Of a DNA stretch of 64,000 nt, positions 1-24,705 are shown in pieces. The stretch is from Thermus aquaticus (lineage in GTDB: Bacteria > Deinococcota > Deinococci > Deinococcales > Thermaceae). The translations under genes and the position numbers were made by a program. Under the pieces are notes generated by a model that saw nothing but the letters and a program-made list of their open reading frames with translations, was not told the DNA's origin and searched no databases. The DNA is taken from contig NZ_LHCI01000106.1 of the NCBI RefSeq assembly GCF_001280255.1, positions 800,274-864,273 on the forward strand. The letters run 5' to 3'. Each line of letters starts with the position of its first letter. The stretch's first letter is position 1.

Positions 1-310
1 ATTGGCCAAGCCTGGGAGCATCACGCCGCACACCAAGTTTGAGGCCTCGGTGTACATCCTGAAGAAGGAGGAGGGCGGGCGGCACACGGGGTTTTTCACG
101 GGGTACCGGCCGCAGTTTTACTTCCGGACGACGGACGTGACGGGGGTGGTGCGGTTGCCCCAGGGGGTGGAGATGGTGATGCCTGGGGACAACGTGACCT
201 TCACGGTGGAGCTCATCAAGCCGGTGGCGCTGGAGGAGGGTTTGCGGTTTGCCATCCGGGAGGGTGGGCGGACCGTGGGCGCCGGCGTGGTCACCAAGAT
301 CCTGGAGTGA
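1..310 (+). CDS. tuf: Elongation factor Tu, C-terminal part (5' end outside window)
   Basis: Partial gene; the reading frame is already open at base 2 and ends with TGA at 308-310. The 102 visible residues match the C-terminal beta-barrel of EF-Tu, including the [13 protein letters not shown] start of that domain, the [15 protein letters not shown] segment and the VGAGVVTKI ending. EF-Tu is the GTPase that delivers aminoacyl-tRNA to the ribosome; its G domain lies upstream of the window. It sits 8 bases before rpsJ, the usual tuf-S10 junction of Thermus str/S10 clusters. Confidence 0.97.
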
Positions 311-318
311 GGTGAAGC

Positions 319-636
319 ATGCCCAAGATCCGCATCAAGCTTCGGGGCTTTGACCACAAGACCCTGGACGCCTCGGCCCAGAAGATCGTGGAGGCCGTTC
401 GGCGTTCCGGGGCCCAGGTCTCAGGCCCCGTTCCCCTGCCCACCCGGGTGCGCCGCTTCACCGTGATCCGGGGTCCTTTCAAGCACAAGGACTCCCGGGA
501 GCACTTTGAGCTTCGCACCCACAACCGCTTGGTGGACATCCTGAACCCCAACCGGAAGACCATTGAGAGCCTCATGTCCCTGGACCTGCCCACCGGCGTG
601 GAGATCGAGATCAAGACCATAGGAGGTGGCAAGTGA
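319..636 (+). CDS. rpsJ: 30S ribosomal protein S10
   Basis: 105 residues, normal for S10. It begins [13 protein letters not shown] and contains the typical GPVPLPT and HKDSREHFE stretches of this head-domain protein, which also acts as NusE in antitermination in other bacteria. The ATG follows a GAGTGAGGTG ribosome-binding site. The stop codon overlaps the GTG start of rplC, so translation is probably coupled. It is the first gene of the S10 section of the super-operon. Confidence 0.98.
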
Positions 637-20194: not shown

Positions 20195-20986
20195 ATGCGC
20201 TGGTTACGGGAGAACTGGCTGGACGCCCTCATCTTTCTCCTGATCGCTCTGGTGGCGGCGGGGATCGTCCTCTACCTGACCGGCATCAACCCCTTCGCCC
20301 GGCCCCAGGCGGCCTCGCCCCCCCCGGTTCCCCAGGTCCAGCCCCCTTCGTCCCAGGCCCCGGCGTCCCCAAGCCCGGCCCCGGAGGAGGCCAAGCCCCC
20401 TGAGCCCGTGGTGATGGTGATACCCCTGCCCCAGGCCCCCTCGGAAGCGGTGCCCCAGCCCGCCCCGGCGGCCAAGCCAAAGGCGGCCCAGGAGGCCAAG
20501 CCCAAGCCCGCCGAGCCCACCCAGGCCCCGCCCAAGGCGCCAGCGCCGGGGGGAAGCTACCGCGTGGCCGTGGGCGCCTTCGCCAACCCGGAAAACGCCC
20601 TCAAGCTTTCCCGGGAGCTTTCGGCCAAAGGGTACCCGGCCCGCCTCGAGGCCAGCGGGAACCTGACCCGGGTGGTGGTGGGCCCCTACGCCAGCGAGGC
20701 CGAGGCCAGGCGGGTGGCCGAGGCACTAAAGGCCTACGGGGCCCGGGTCTACCGGGGGGAGGCCCCGGCGCCCCAGGAGGGGAGGCTTTACCTCCAGGTG
20801 GGGGCCTTCCAGAAGGAGGAGAACGCCCTGGCCCTGGCGGGGAAGCTGAAGGAGGTGGGGCTTCCTGTGGTCCTGGTGAAGGACGGGGTCTACCGGGTGC
20901 GGGTGGGCCCGGTCTCCCCCGAGGAAAAGGAAGCCGTGAAGGCCAAGGTAGCCGCCCTGGGCCTCGAGGCCGTGGAGGTGCCATGA
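20195..20986 (+). CDS. SPOR-domain membrane protein
   Basis: 263 residues from the ATG at 20195 after CTTGGGAGGTAGG. One transmembrane helix (about 11-30) is followed by a Pro/Ala-rich spacer (about 35-125) and two SPOR repeats (about 128-195 and 205-263; compare YRVAVGAFANPENALKLSREL and LYLQVGAFQKEENALALAGKL). SPOR domains bind denuded peptidoglycan at division septa. The stop overlaps the rex ATG by 4 bases. Confidence 0.88.
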   Translation: MRWLRENWLDALIFLLIALVAAGIVLYLTGINPFARPQAASPPPVPQVQPPSSQAPASPSPAPEEAKPPEPVVMVIPLPQAPSEAVPQPAPAAKPKAAQEAKPKPAEPTQAPPKAPAPGGSYRVAVGAFANPENALKLSRELSAKGYPARLEASGNLTRVVVGPYASEAEARRVAEALKAYGARVYRGEAPAPQEGRLYLQVGAFQKEENALALAGKLKEVGLPVVLVKDGVYRVRVGPVSPEEKEAVKAKVAALGLEAVEVP

Positions 20987-21618
20987 AGGTTCCCAGCGCC
21001 GCCATCAGCCGCCTCATCACCTACCTGCGCATCCTGGAGGAGCTGGAGGCCAAGGGCATCCACCGCACCAGCTCGGAGCAGTTGGCGGAGGAGGCCCAGG
21101 TGACCGCCTTCCAGGTGCGCAAGGACCTCTCCTACTTCGGCTCCTACGGCACCCGGGGGGTGGGGTACACCGTGCCCGTCCTCAAGCGGGAACTGCGCCA
21201 CATCCTGGGCCTGAACCGCAGGTGGGGCCTCGCCATCGTGGGCATGGGCCGCCTGGGGAGCGCCCTCGCCGACTACCCCGGCTTTGGCGAGACCTTTGAG
21301 CTTCGGGGCTTCTTTGACGTGGACCCGGAGAAGATCGGCAAGCCCGTGGGAAGGGGGGTCATTGAGCCCATGGAGGCCCTCCCCCAGAGGGTCCCGGGCC
21401 GGATAGAGATCGCCCTCCTCACCGTCCCCCGGGAGGCGGCCCAGGAGGCGGCGGACCAGCTGGTGCGGGCGGGGATCAAGGGCATCCTCAACTTCGCTCC
21501 GGTGGTCCTCGAGGTGCCCAAAGAGGTAGCGGTGGAGAACGTGGACTTCCTGGCTGGACTTACCCGGCTGGCTTTCTTTATACTGAACCCCAAGTGGGGA
21601 GAGGAGATGATGGGATGA
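20983..21618 (+). CDS. rex: Redox-sensing transcriptional repressor Rex
   Basis: 211 residues. The N-terminal winged helix (about 1-80) contains AQVTAFQVRKDLSYFGSYGTRGVGY, the Rex DNA-recognition signature. The Rossmann domain follows with IVGMGRLGSALADYPGF binding NAD(H), then FFDVDPEKIG. Rex dissociates from DNA when NADH is high. Overlap with the SPOR gene upstream and the lipoprotein downstream suggests an operon. No Rex operator was recognised. Confidence 0.95.
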   Translation: MKVPSAAISRLITYLRILEELEAKGIHRTSSEQLAEEAQVTAFQVRKDLSYFGSYGTRGVGYTVPVLKRELRHILGLNRRWGLAIVGMGRLGSALADYPGFGETFELRGFFDVDPEKIGKPVGRGVIEPMEALPQRVPGRIEIALLTVPREAAQEAADQLVRAGIKGILNFAPVVLEVPKEVAVENVDFLAGLTRLAFFILNPKWGEEMMG

Positions 21619-22136
21619 GGGGGTGGTATATGTACAAGCTTTGGTTCAGTGCACTTGTTCTTCTGGTGTTTTTGGTTGGATGTGGGCAGATCTTTTTTAA
21701 CCCAGAGCCTTACCGCGTCAGCCTGAACCCCCCGCAGCTGGGCTACGAGGTAGATGACCAGGGGCGGATAACCGTCGTGGGGAACAACGCTGTGGTGGAG
21801 GTGGCCCCCGGCGCTCCCGAGGGGGTGTTGGAGCGCTACGAGTATGTATACATGGACGACAGCGGGAATGAAGTACTGCCGGGGGCTTCCCTAGGGAGTG
21901 GCTCGGTGGGCCTTCCTTTCCCCTCAGGTCGGGAGGTGGTGGACGGGCAGGTGGTGTTCAAGTGGGCCCGGTCTGAGCCTTTCCGCTTCTCCCTGGATGG
22001 CTCTGTGGCTGCCGAGCATTTGCGCCAGGGAGCTCCTCTCAACTGGCGTGCTCGGGTTACCTGGTATGCCCGGCTCACAAACGGGGAAGAGAAATCCTGG
22101 ACCCAGGAATATCAGATCAAGTTCCCCTTAAAATGA
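21615..22136 (+). CDS. Small lipoprotein of unknown function
   Basis: 173 residues from the ATG at 21615, which overlaps the rex TGA and follows GAGAGGAG. ATG 21630, after AGGGGGTGG, is an alternative. The signal peptide ends in a lipobox (LVFLVGC), so it is a lipoprotein. The rest (NPEPYRVSLNPPQLGYEV ... WARVTWYA-like) looks beta-rich and has no recognised domain. Codon use is clearly less GC3-rich than in rex, and the gene forms a low-GC block with the next one. Confidence 0.75.
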   Translation: MRGWYMYKLWFSALVLLVFLVGCGQIFFNPEPYRVSLNPPQLGYEVDDQGRITVVGNNAVVEVAPGAPEGVLERYEYVYMDDSGNEVLPGASLGSGSVGLPFPSGREVVDGQVVFKWARSEPFRFSLDGSVAAEHLRQGAPLNWRARVTWYARLTNGEEKSWTQEYQIKFPLK

Positions 22137-22149
22137 GAGGGAGGGCGGG

Positions 22150-23700
22150 ATGTTGAAATGGCTACGGTGGGGGTTGTTGTTGGGCCTTTTAGGGCTTCTT
22201 TTCGGCTGCAACTGGCAAGGAGCCCAGTCTTCGGACACAAGTTCTCGCGTGTCTTTAGGGATCAGCCGTCCCGCGCAGGGTGTCTTCACTAATGACTTGA
22301 GTGTTGAGGTCAGAGTCTCGGCCACGGGGGCTACCGTAACCCAGGTTACCTTGGTATATAGGGGAGAAACTAGCGGTTCTTTCCTCCTTACTTCCCAGCG
22401 CGGCGTTTGGGTTGGACAGCTGCCCGACACGCTGCCCTCAGGCCAATACGCCCTGAAAGCCGAAGCCAGGTTGCAGGGAGGTGGGGCGGCGATTAGTAGC
22501 TCAGAAGTTACCTTCACCTTGGACCGTGAACCTCCTGAAATATCCATACTAGAGCCTCCTCCGTCCCCTCTAGCTCATGGTTCAGCTTCTATACGCATAA
22601 GGGCAAGCGATAGATTATCTGGAATTCAAGAGGTTTTTCTACAGCAAGGAAACGATGTAGTTGCGAGGGGGACCCTCCTTGAGGCTGATGAGTATAGGCT
22701 AACCCTGGATGTCGGCACCTTGCGGGAGGGGGTTCCTTTTTCTGTGGTTGCCAAGGACCGGGCCGGGAATGAAAGGCGCGAGCCCTTAAACCTCGTAGTG
22801 GACCGGCAGGCGCCCACGGTGGTGTGGCGGCGGCCGGCGGACGGGGCGCAGGTGTCGGGCACGGTGACGTTGGAGGTGGAGGCCACGGACAACGTGGGCG
22901 TGGCGAAGGTGGAGTTCTTCGCTGGGTCCACGAAGCTTGGGGAGGCCACCTCGGCGCCCTACACCTTTAGCTGGGACACCACGGGGTATCCCGACGGCCC
23001 GGTGACCCTGAAGGCCCGGGCGGTGGACGCGGCGGGGAACGCCGCGGAGGCCACCTTGCAGGTGACGGTGGCCAATGCCCCGGAGATTTACTGGGTGAAC
23101 CCGGCAGCGAATGGGCTGGTGGCAGGTTTTGTTCTCCTTGAGGCGGAAGTGCGGGCTCTTCGGAGTGTGGATAGGGTAGAGTTCTACTTCGGGTCTAGCC
23201 TGGATAGCCTTAGTAAGATACCGGGCACGCCTACTGTTAGCGGTTCGCTCTATAGCTTGGGGTGGGATGTTCTTCGGGTTACCCCTGGGGTTTACTTCCT
23301 GAAGGCCGTGGTGATTGATGTGGCCGGGGCACGGAGTGAGGCGGTGATCCCGGTACAGGTGGGTTCGGCTTTTGTCCTGGACAGTCCTTCCGACGGGGAC
23401 CAGGTGGGCCCCGGCGCAAACCGCGCTATCGTAGCGGTAACGGTTGGCGTGAGGGGGACCTTGCCTCCTGGGGTTTCCATAAACCGGGTAGACATCTACA
23501 TCAATGGCTATTTGGCGGGGACTGCGGCAAGGCAAACAGCGACCGACGGCTCTGAGGTCTATGTGTTTTCCTGGGATACGCGAATTTCTTTACCTGGGCA
23601 TGATCCCACTGCTTCTGGGGATAGGGTAATCACGGCGCGGGTGTACTACACGGGTGAAGATACGTTCACGAATGGCGTAAGGGTTCTGTACTTGCCTTAG
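22150..23700 (+). CDS. Lipoprotein with tandem Ig-like modules
   Basis: 516 residues. The signal peptide ends in the lipobox LLFGC. About five beta-sandwich modules follow, near residues 30-120, 125-217, 218-314, 315-405 and 406-516. Several carry the bacterial Ig-type pattern DRxAP ... S-G-x-V-x-L-x-V-x-A-x-D-x-x-G-V-x-K-V, with YTFSWDTTGYPDG in the third. It is likely a surface adhesion or matrix protein. Modules 1-2 and 4-5 use AT-richer codons, whereas module 3 (22801-23090) has typical GC3-rich Thermus codons, so the gene is mosaic. RBS GAGAGGGAGGGCGGG. Confidence 0.82.
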   Translation: MLKWLRWGLLLGLLGLLFGCNWQGAQSSDTSSRVSLGISRPAQGVFTNDLSVEVRVSATGATVTQVTLVYRGETSGSFLLTSQRGVWVGQLPDTLPSGQYALKAEARLQGGGAAISSSEVTFTLDREPPEISILEPPPSPLAHGSASIRIRASDRLSGIQEVFLQQGNDVVARGTLLEADEYRLTLDVGTLREGVPFSVVAKDRAGNERREPLNLVVDRQAPTVVWRRPADGAQVSGTVTLEVEATDNVGVAKVEFFAGSTKLGEATSAPYTFSWDTTGYPDGPVTLKARAVDAAGNAAEATLQVTVANAPEIYWVNPAANGLVAGFVLLEAEVRALRSVDRVEFYFGSSLDSLSKIPGTPTVSGSLYSLGWDVLRVTPGVYFLKAVVIDVAGARSEAVIPVQVGSAFVLDSPSDGDQVGPGANRAIVAVTVGVRGTLPPGVSINRVDIYINGYLAGTAARQTATDGSEVYVFSWDTRISLPGHDPTASGDRVITARVYYTGEDTFTNGVRVLYLP

Positions 23701-23714
23701 CAAAGGCTTGTAGT

Positions 23715-23745: not shown

Positions 23746-23751
23746 TATACT
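23746..23751 (+). promoter_or_regulatory. -10 box for the polyprenyl synthase gene
   Basis: TATACT, 6 bases before the GTG at 23758, immediately downstream of the hairpin at 23715-23739. Confidence 0.55.
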
Positions 23752-23757
23752 CAGGGG

Positions 23758-24705
23758 GTGGTCAAGCCCCTGCCCCTCGAGGCCAAGCTCGCCGCCTTTG
23801 AAGAGGCCCTTTCGGAGCTGGTGCGCTCGGAGGTCCTCTTCGTTCGGCTCATCCACCAGGACCTGGTGACCGCTGGGGGAAAGCGCATCCGCCCAAGGCT
23901 CGTCTTCCTGGCCTCGGGGGCCGTTGGGGGTGCCCCCTTTGAGCTGGAGCTGGCCCTGGCGGTGGAGCTCCTCCACTCCGCCACCCTCCTCCACGACGAC
24001 CTCATTGACGAGGCGGAGCTCAGGCGGGGGAAGGAGGCCGCCTACCGCCGCTACGGCAACGCGGTGAGCGTTCTCTCCGGGGACTTTCTCCTCTCCCGAC
24101 TCCTCCACGTGGTGGCCAAAACGGGAAGCCTGGAGCTAGTGGAGGCCTTCGCCGAGACGGCCCGGGTTCTGGCCGAGGGGGAGGTCCTGCAGTTCCAGGT
24201 GGCCGCCCTGGAGGACTACTCCCTGGAAAACTACGAAAGAATCATCACCGCCAAGACCGCCGCCCTCATGGCCCTGGCCACGGAGGGCCCCGCCCTGCTG
24301 AAGGGCCTTAAGGGGCCGTGGCGGGAGGCCCTCAGGCGCTTCGGCCTCCTCTACGGCCAGGCCTTCCAGATGCGGGACGACTACCTGGACCTCATGGGAA
24401 GCCCCGAGGCCTTGGGCAAGCCCGTGGGCGGGGACGTGCGGGAGGGCAAGGCCACCCTCCTCACCCTCCTCCTCATGGAGCGCTTCCCCGAGGTGAGGGC
24501 CATCCTCAAAAGGCGGGGCGGGGAGGCGGGGGATCTGGAGCGGCTCAGGGCCTTAGCCCGGGAAAGCGGGGTGGCGGAGGAGGTGGAGGCCCGGATCCGG
24601 GAGCGAGCCCTTCTGGCGGCGGAGGCCCTGGACCCCCTTCCCGACTCCCCCTACAAGGAGGCCCTGAGGGACCTGGCCCTGGCCGAAGGGAAGAGGCTCG
24701 CCTAG
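23758..24705 (+). CDS. Polyprenyl diphosphate synthase (trans type)
   Basis: 315 residues from the GTG at 23758. Both Asp-rich motifs are present: LLHDDLIDEAELRRG (DDxxD) and FQMRDDYLDLMG (DDxxD), along with GGKRIRPRLV for the diphosphate-binding Arg. It condenses isopentenyl diphosphate onto allylic primers, probably making the octaprenyl- or heptaprenyl-type side chain of menaquinone; the chain length is not readable here. The upstream extension to 23713 would cover a terminator hairpin and a -10 box and is rejected. Confidence 0.93.
   Translation: MVKPLPLEAKLAAFEEALSELVRSEVLFVRLIHQDLVTAGGKRIRPRLVFLASGAVGGAPFELELALAVELLHSATLLHDDLIDEAELRRGKEAAYRRYGNAVSVLSGDFLLSRLLHVVAKTGSLELVEAFAETARVLAEGEVLQFQVAALEDYSLENYERIITAKTAALMALATEGPALLKGLKGPWREALRRFGLLYGQAFQMRDDYLDLMGSPEALGKPVGGDVREGKATLLTLLLMERFPEVRAILKRRGGEAGDLERLRALARESGVAEEVEARIRERALLAAEALDPLPDSPYKEALRDLALAEGKRLA

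Follow-up and report, generated by a model that had tools for sequence, protein, structure and literature searches.

Why does one domain in a chain of similar domains carry codons unlike those of its neighbors? The question is raised by a gene of the thermophile Thermus aquaticus that encodes a predicted lipoprotein of Ig-like modules. It lies in a 64,000-nucleotide stretch of DNA, the window of this analysis. An earlier note, made from the sequence, read the gene as a mosaic whose third module had been exchanged between a resident Ig-domain gene and an acquired surface-protein gene. Our analysis favors another reading: the product is probably a lipoprotein rod of the cell envelope in which one Ig domain, module 3, can be duplicated and permits swaps, working in the manner of Periscope Proteins. 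Comparisons draw on a genus set of 27 genomes, one genome per species; G000 denotes the genome of the window, other G numbers denote genomes of relatives, and L numbers denote loci.

The locus and its product

The gene sits between 2 genes conserved throughout the genus set (Table 1). Judged by their sequences, these presumably encode a rex-type redox repressor and a polyprenyl synthase-type protein (pps). A small lipoprotein gene precedes the Ig gene; it starts at an ATG (21615) that shares bases with the stop codon of rex (ATGA), and its ORF is listed from a GTG at 21594. The pps ORF as listed starts at 23713.

Table 1. Features of the rex–pps interval, in window coordinates.
Feature	Coordinates	Strand	Basis or remark
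rex-type redox repressor gene (presumed)	20983..21618	+	Upstream locus border; in 27/27 genus genomes
Small lipoprotein, type A	21615..22136	+	ORF list; ATG start read by eye
Ig-like lipoprotein gene, 516 aa	22150..23700	+	ORF, Pfam matches
Signal peptide to lipobox Cys20	22150..22209	+	Read by eye (LLFGC)
Module 1, residues 26-125	22225..22524	+	GC3 0.61
Module 2, residues 126-216	22525..22797	+	GC3 0.44
Module 3, residues 217-308	22798..23073	+	GC3 0.96, G-ending codons, best Big_7 match
Module 4, residues 312-405	23083..23364	+	GC3 0.62
Module 5, residues 406-516	23365..23697	+	GC3 0.61
Polyprenyl synthase-type gene, pps (presumed)	23749..24705	+	Downstream locus border; in 27/27 genus genomes

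The 516-aa ORF belongs to the Pfam family Big_7 (PF17957; E 9.2e-42 over 4 stretches, 142 bits against a Pfam cut-off of 24.1) and also matches Big_13 (PF19077; E 7.6e-14). These scores are for the protein as a whole, and the family names denote a fold, not a function. Structure prediction, built on an alignment of only 2 sequences, gives successive beta-sandwich domains (mean pLDDT 83.9, pTM 0.53) in which the strands of module 3 span residues 223-307. A fold search of this model against solved structures was uninformative: the 50 matches listed were all generic Ig chains with query TM-scores of at most about 0.3. By sequence, module 3 matches the chains 9kvu_A (bacterial immunoglobulin domain B1; E 7.8e-11) and 9x9r_A (chitodextrinase; E 1.9e-12), which belong to other proteins in other contexts. 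A cysteine also occupies the lipobox position in the aligned orthologs. With its predicted lipobox and folds, the product is most likely an envelope-anchored lipoprotein, a chain of Ig-like domains that may be displayed on the surface.

Of the 27 genus genomes, 8 carry the Ig gene (G000, G001, G009, G012, G013, G015, G016, and G018). The 2 border genes share a contig in 23 of the 27, with 0.3 to 2.5 kb between them; in the remaining four (G001, G012, G015, and G018), contigs end within the Ig gene. Reading the rex–pps interval in the other 19 genomes revealed no Ig gene. The longest interval, 2.5 kb at L082 (G002:C1:241000-243900), also lacks one; by eye it seems to hold a transposase in two frames, presumably IS630-like.

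The small lipoprotein of the rex–pps interval comes in two types, A and B (window 21615-22136 and L083-L100), and no Ig gene of the genus is accompanied by type B. Type A lies upstream of the Ig gene in all 8 carriers, and the 19 genomes without an Ig gene divide into 3 of type A and 16 of type B, G008 and G025 being assigned from fragments by visual inspection (Fisher p 7e-5, uncorrected for kinship). A profile comparison of 10 type A and 14 type B sequences, collected with strict patterns that did not catch G012, G008, and G025, gave no support for homology between the types.

A step in codon composition

The sharp switch in composition proposed in the earlier note was borne out. GC3 is not uniform along the gene, and a likelihood scan selects codons 217-308 (22798-23073) as the best segment, with GC3 0.957 inside and 0.580 in the rest of the ORF (likelihood ratio 30.1). 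None of 200 codon shuffles reached this value (maximum 11.7). The edges first suggested, 22801 and 23090, were right to one codon on the left and 17 nt too long on the right. Related modules also exist elsewhere in Thermus, as the reading in the earlier note required.

The level of module 3 is the ordinary one: GC3 is 0.908 +- 0.026 over 50 genes of the window, chosen by a picker that favors host-like codon usage, and the flanks of the Ig gene are the outlier. The small lipoprotein upstream, at 0.73, is low like these flanks. The choice among GC-ending codons tells otherwise, and the view that module 3 is written in Thermus codons fails. At four-fold sites the module has G 0.68 and C 0.29, against G 0.37 and C 0.55 in 24 of these 50 genes, and none of 809 equal-length segments of the 24 attains its G fraction. 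Six orthologs together give a similar picture for module 3 (A.01, C.20, G.69, T.10). The skew is not specific to module 3 within Thermus, since in G000 the preference for G-ending codons splits at codon 215 and extends to the C-terminus (1 of 200 shuffles), and in G013 the preference for G over C shows no significant split (26 of 200).

The G-ending style is not a property of the Big_7 family, because in a comparison of 35 loci, with a scored module in 28, the four-fold G fraction lies below 0.5 in 23 of the 28. The others are L013, L078 (G028 itself, a genome of another genus of the family), L111, L112, and L117. L013 (G048:C6) is a low-GC Ig gene of another family, in which one module has a four-fold G fraction of 0.56 (39 sites) against 0.26 for the whole ORF; it may be another example of a module with a composition of its own.

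Could the step simply reflect constraint, with module 3 a conserved functional domain whose conserved codons keep their GC-ending form while the rest of the gene drifts? Amino acid identity is 73-90% in module 3 and 22-86% (most 31-73%) in the other modules, ranges taken over the listed pairs apart from the two closest (G000-G016 and G009-G018). GC3 broadly tracks conservation across the segments of the locus, and within module 3 conserved codons have a GC3 of 0.93 and variable codons 0.84. The value for variable codons is nonetheless high, in the flanks the codons of fully conserved residues and those of variable ones are nearly equal (0.60/0.60, 0.54/0.55, 0.64/0.65, and 0.64/0.67), and the codons that module 3 favors differ from those favored by the genome. 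Since variable codons stay high in module 3 and flanking codons of both kinds look alike, the step belongs mainly to the segment. The test weakens residue conservation as its cause, and we regard constraint by itself as unlikely, though it is the strongest of the competing accounts.

Age of the contrast

High GC3 in module 3 is common to all 6 orthologs in which the module can be read: 0.96 in G000, 0.90 in G016, 0.92 in G013, 0.89 in G009, 0.85 in G018, and 0.90 in G015, with 0.44-0.80 in their other modules. In G012 and G001, only 16-21 codons are present at each edge of module 3, with GC3 0.75-0.90. The contrast is thus not restricted to the lineage of the window; it is old and predates these species. 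Its sharpness varies. The GC3 scan selects codons 217-308 in G000, 216-401 (both copies of the module) in G016, and 219-317 in G013, with 0 of 200 shuffles reaching each. In G009 (codons 16-205), G018 (16-214), and G015 (the first 44 codons of the fragment), it selects not module 3 but the low part upstream; a step that is sharp at both edges is thus confined to the first three. In G028, the signal region forms the best GC3 segment, which is not significant (1 of 200 shuffles).

Divergence rates separate the module from its surroundings. In the 13 more distant of 15 species pairs, four-fold divergence is 0.55-0.74 in the flanks (partial in G015 and G018), 0.13-0.35 in module 3, and 0.27-0.45 in rex plus pps; flank differences in the two closest pairs are 0.27 (G000-G016) and 0.16 (G009-G018). 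Over all 15 pairs the module 3 difference is 0.04-0.35 and never above the pooled rex and pps baseline. The pace of module 3 is that of a normal chromosomal gene; it is the flanks that evolve fast, at about twice the rate in distant pairs. In 4 of the 15 pairs, which are not independent, module 3 falls below the pooled baseline at an uncorrected p<0.05; these rates hint weakly at exchange of the module between species. Nucleotide conservation of the module core beyond the baseline was not significant in any of the 15 pairs (smallest p 0.057).

These results bear on recent import, in which a module of some other gene, with codon usage unlike that of this one, would have replaced module 3 in the lineage of the window. 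The step is sharp at both domain edges and the gene behaves as a mosaic in relatives, as import would have it. Part of the earlier reading holds: module 3 forms a unit of its own within a mosaic gene, and in relatives modules or halves of this gene are indeed duplicated and swapped. A recent exchange between a resident Thermus-style gene and an acquired one is not supported. It is largely refuted by the contrast in 6 of 6 readable orthologs; the divergence of the module between species, at or below the baseline, is that of an old resident; and in codon choice it differs from the resident genome. A paralogous copy that could have served as donor, for which the earlier note proposed a search, was not found in the same genome, with 5 of 5 protein candidates and 28 of 161 DNA candidates scored. 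Plasmids and phages yielded no better donor: 13 plasmid records matched, all at <60% identity and none with 80% query coverage, and no phage match was found at E 1e-5. Recent import is accordingly improbable.

Module 3 as a duplicated unit

The preferred reading, a rod with a duplicable domain, draws on the relatives. In G016, module 3 is tandemly duplicated: the 2 copies, each of 279 bp, are identical over stretches of 72 and 203 nt on either side of a single internal difference, and their edges lie at most one codon away from the GC3 step of the single-copy window gene. In G028, an exact tandem repeat has a period of 564 bp and a tract of 652 nt. Across species, with one genome each, there is one copy in G000, G013, G009, and G015, and two in G016. 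Against a reading in terms of arrays stands the fact that these occur in relatives only: the window gene has a single module 3, and its only internal repeat of at least 30 nt is one of 31 nt at 74%.

Assemblies G001 and G012 point in the same direction. In each, one contig covers about the first 62 nt of module 3, and its partner starts about 52-62 nt before the module end. Neither a protein search that scored all candidates nor a DNA search that scored 28 of 133 and 28 of 124 of them recovered the interior in either assembly. This assembly pattern would fit the collapse of 2 or more identical tandem copies.

The break in G015 is of another kind. It falls in module 2 of the Ig gene (L071 2636-2712 and the start of L070), at the end of a sequence that occurs 10 times in this genome and is probably a mobile element.

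Module 3 as a probable site of C-terminal swaps

The same module marks a boundary between gene halves. G018 and G009 show 92.9% identity from upstream of the gene to a point near codon 298, within module 3, and 94.4% identity directly downstream of the stop; from about codon 298 to the stop there is no blastn match at E 1e-5. As proteins, their C-terminal halves retain no more than a remote Ig-module resemblance (about 33% aa). The G018 half (633 aa) instead resembles that of G028, with 59% identity over 637 aligned columns. The G018 gene spans 2 contigs, whose adjacency we infer from the rex–pps order in other genomes. pps follows the Ig gene in G028 as well; its contig begins just upstream of the gene, and the gene, read by eye, is without module 2. 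Two C-terminal architectures exist, and the alignments place the exchange of one for the other between G009 and G018 at a junction in module 3.

How duplication and exchange might act together can be proposed. Homologous recombination would add or remove exact copies of module 3 and so alter the length of the rod, and the shared module would let different C-terminal halves join one N-terminal half. On this proposal, module 3, always copied and swapped as one piece, would for that reason have kept its own composition and a synonymous divergence like that of housekeeping genes, and the remaining modules would meanwhile have approached saturation. The single module 3 of the window would then be one copy-number state of an old array module and not a fresh import, and the function would be variation in the length or the tip of the displayed protein.

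Codon style in tandem arrays

Does the codon style of module 3 belong to arrays? In G028, a scan for G-ending codons selects codons 188-602 (0.84, against 0.49 outside; 0 of 200 shuffles), and the exact repeat spans about codons 199-604. Four-fold composition in windows of this array (about A.03, C.13, G.69, T.15) closely resembles that of Thermus module 3. Tandem arrays are not G-skewed in general. Among 45 Ig ORFs, with those under 300 codons skipped, 4 had both repeat and non-repeat windows (L080 with a single repeat window); repeats are G-skewed in G016 and G028 and C-skewed in L161 and L080. The latter two encode lipoproteins with near-identical Ig repeats, and in these repeats nearly all G/C-ending four-fold codons end in C (G share 0.11 in L161 and 0.04 in L080), which is the reverse of module 3.

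GC-biased gene conversion among tandem copies, which would have raised the GC3 of module 3, is very unlikely: four-fold GC is higher in the G016 copies than in the non-repeat part (0.86 vs 0.64) and self-identity correlates with GC over all 1651 windows (rho 0.61, confounded by mixing genomes of different GC), but the other 3 of the 4 arrays show no such rise within the gene (G028 0.82 vs 0.80, L161 0.91 vs 0.91, L080 0.78 vs 0.85), and a bias that treats G and C alike does not account for a module rich in G and not in C.

Avoidance of RNA folding was also rejected as the cause of the style, as module 3 of the window folds more stably than its recodings (z -1.9 for matched and -2.3 for host-coded sequences). 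Repeats of G028, L161, and L080 fold less stably than GC3-matched recodings (z 2.0, 5.6, and 4.0), module 3 of G013 leans neither way (0.1), and the values for three host segments run from -1.8 to 0.1.

A further idea combines these threads: a single module would serve as the joint for both length change and C-terminal swap, with the G-ending style as a lasting footprint of the array. We advance it tentatively, as a possibility more doubtful than the rod itself. Literature matches listed on codon or strand asymmetry of coding repeats held nothing directly on point.

Relation to Periscope Proteins

In Periscope Proteins, as excerpts of two papers describe them, individually folding and highly identical tandem domains form a rod whose length is set by the number of repeats, and recombination is the proposed mechanism for changes in that number (PMC8201768, PMC9704523). 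The near-exact and exact tandem Ig modules of G016 and G028 resemble this arrangement and are highly identical at the DNA level; the window gene, with a single copy, has no such repeats. Individual folding may have a counterpart in the separate beta-sandwich domains predicted by the two-sequence-alignment model (pLDDT 83.9, pTM 0.53), and of the surface and tip features described, the sequence displays only the lipobox. The product is a predicted lipoprotein of a thermophile, unlike the sortase-linked proteins and inverse autotransporters of those excerpts, and base composition of the repeats is not discussed in the excerpted text of PMC9704523. Among the matches listed for Thermus and Ig-like terms, no paper was titled on this locus, which is no proof of absence.

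Significance

The host is a naturally competent thermophile, and what appeared as an oddity of base composition becomes a testable case of modular envelope-protein evolution in such an organism. The comparison suggests that a step in codon composition may mark a duplicable unit even where that unit is present in single copy. If the footprint idea is true, arrays hidden or collapsed in short-read assemblies could be spotted by their codon style, and single-copy genes would still betray a past array.
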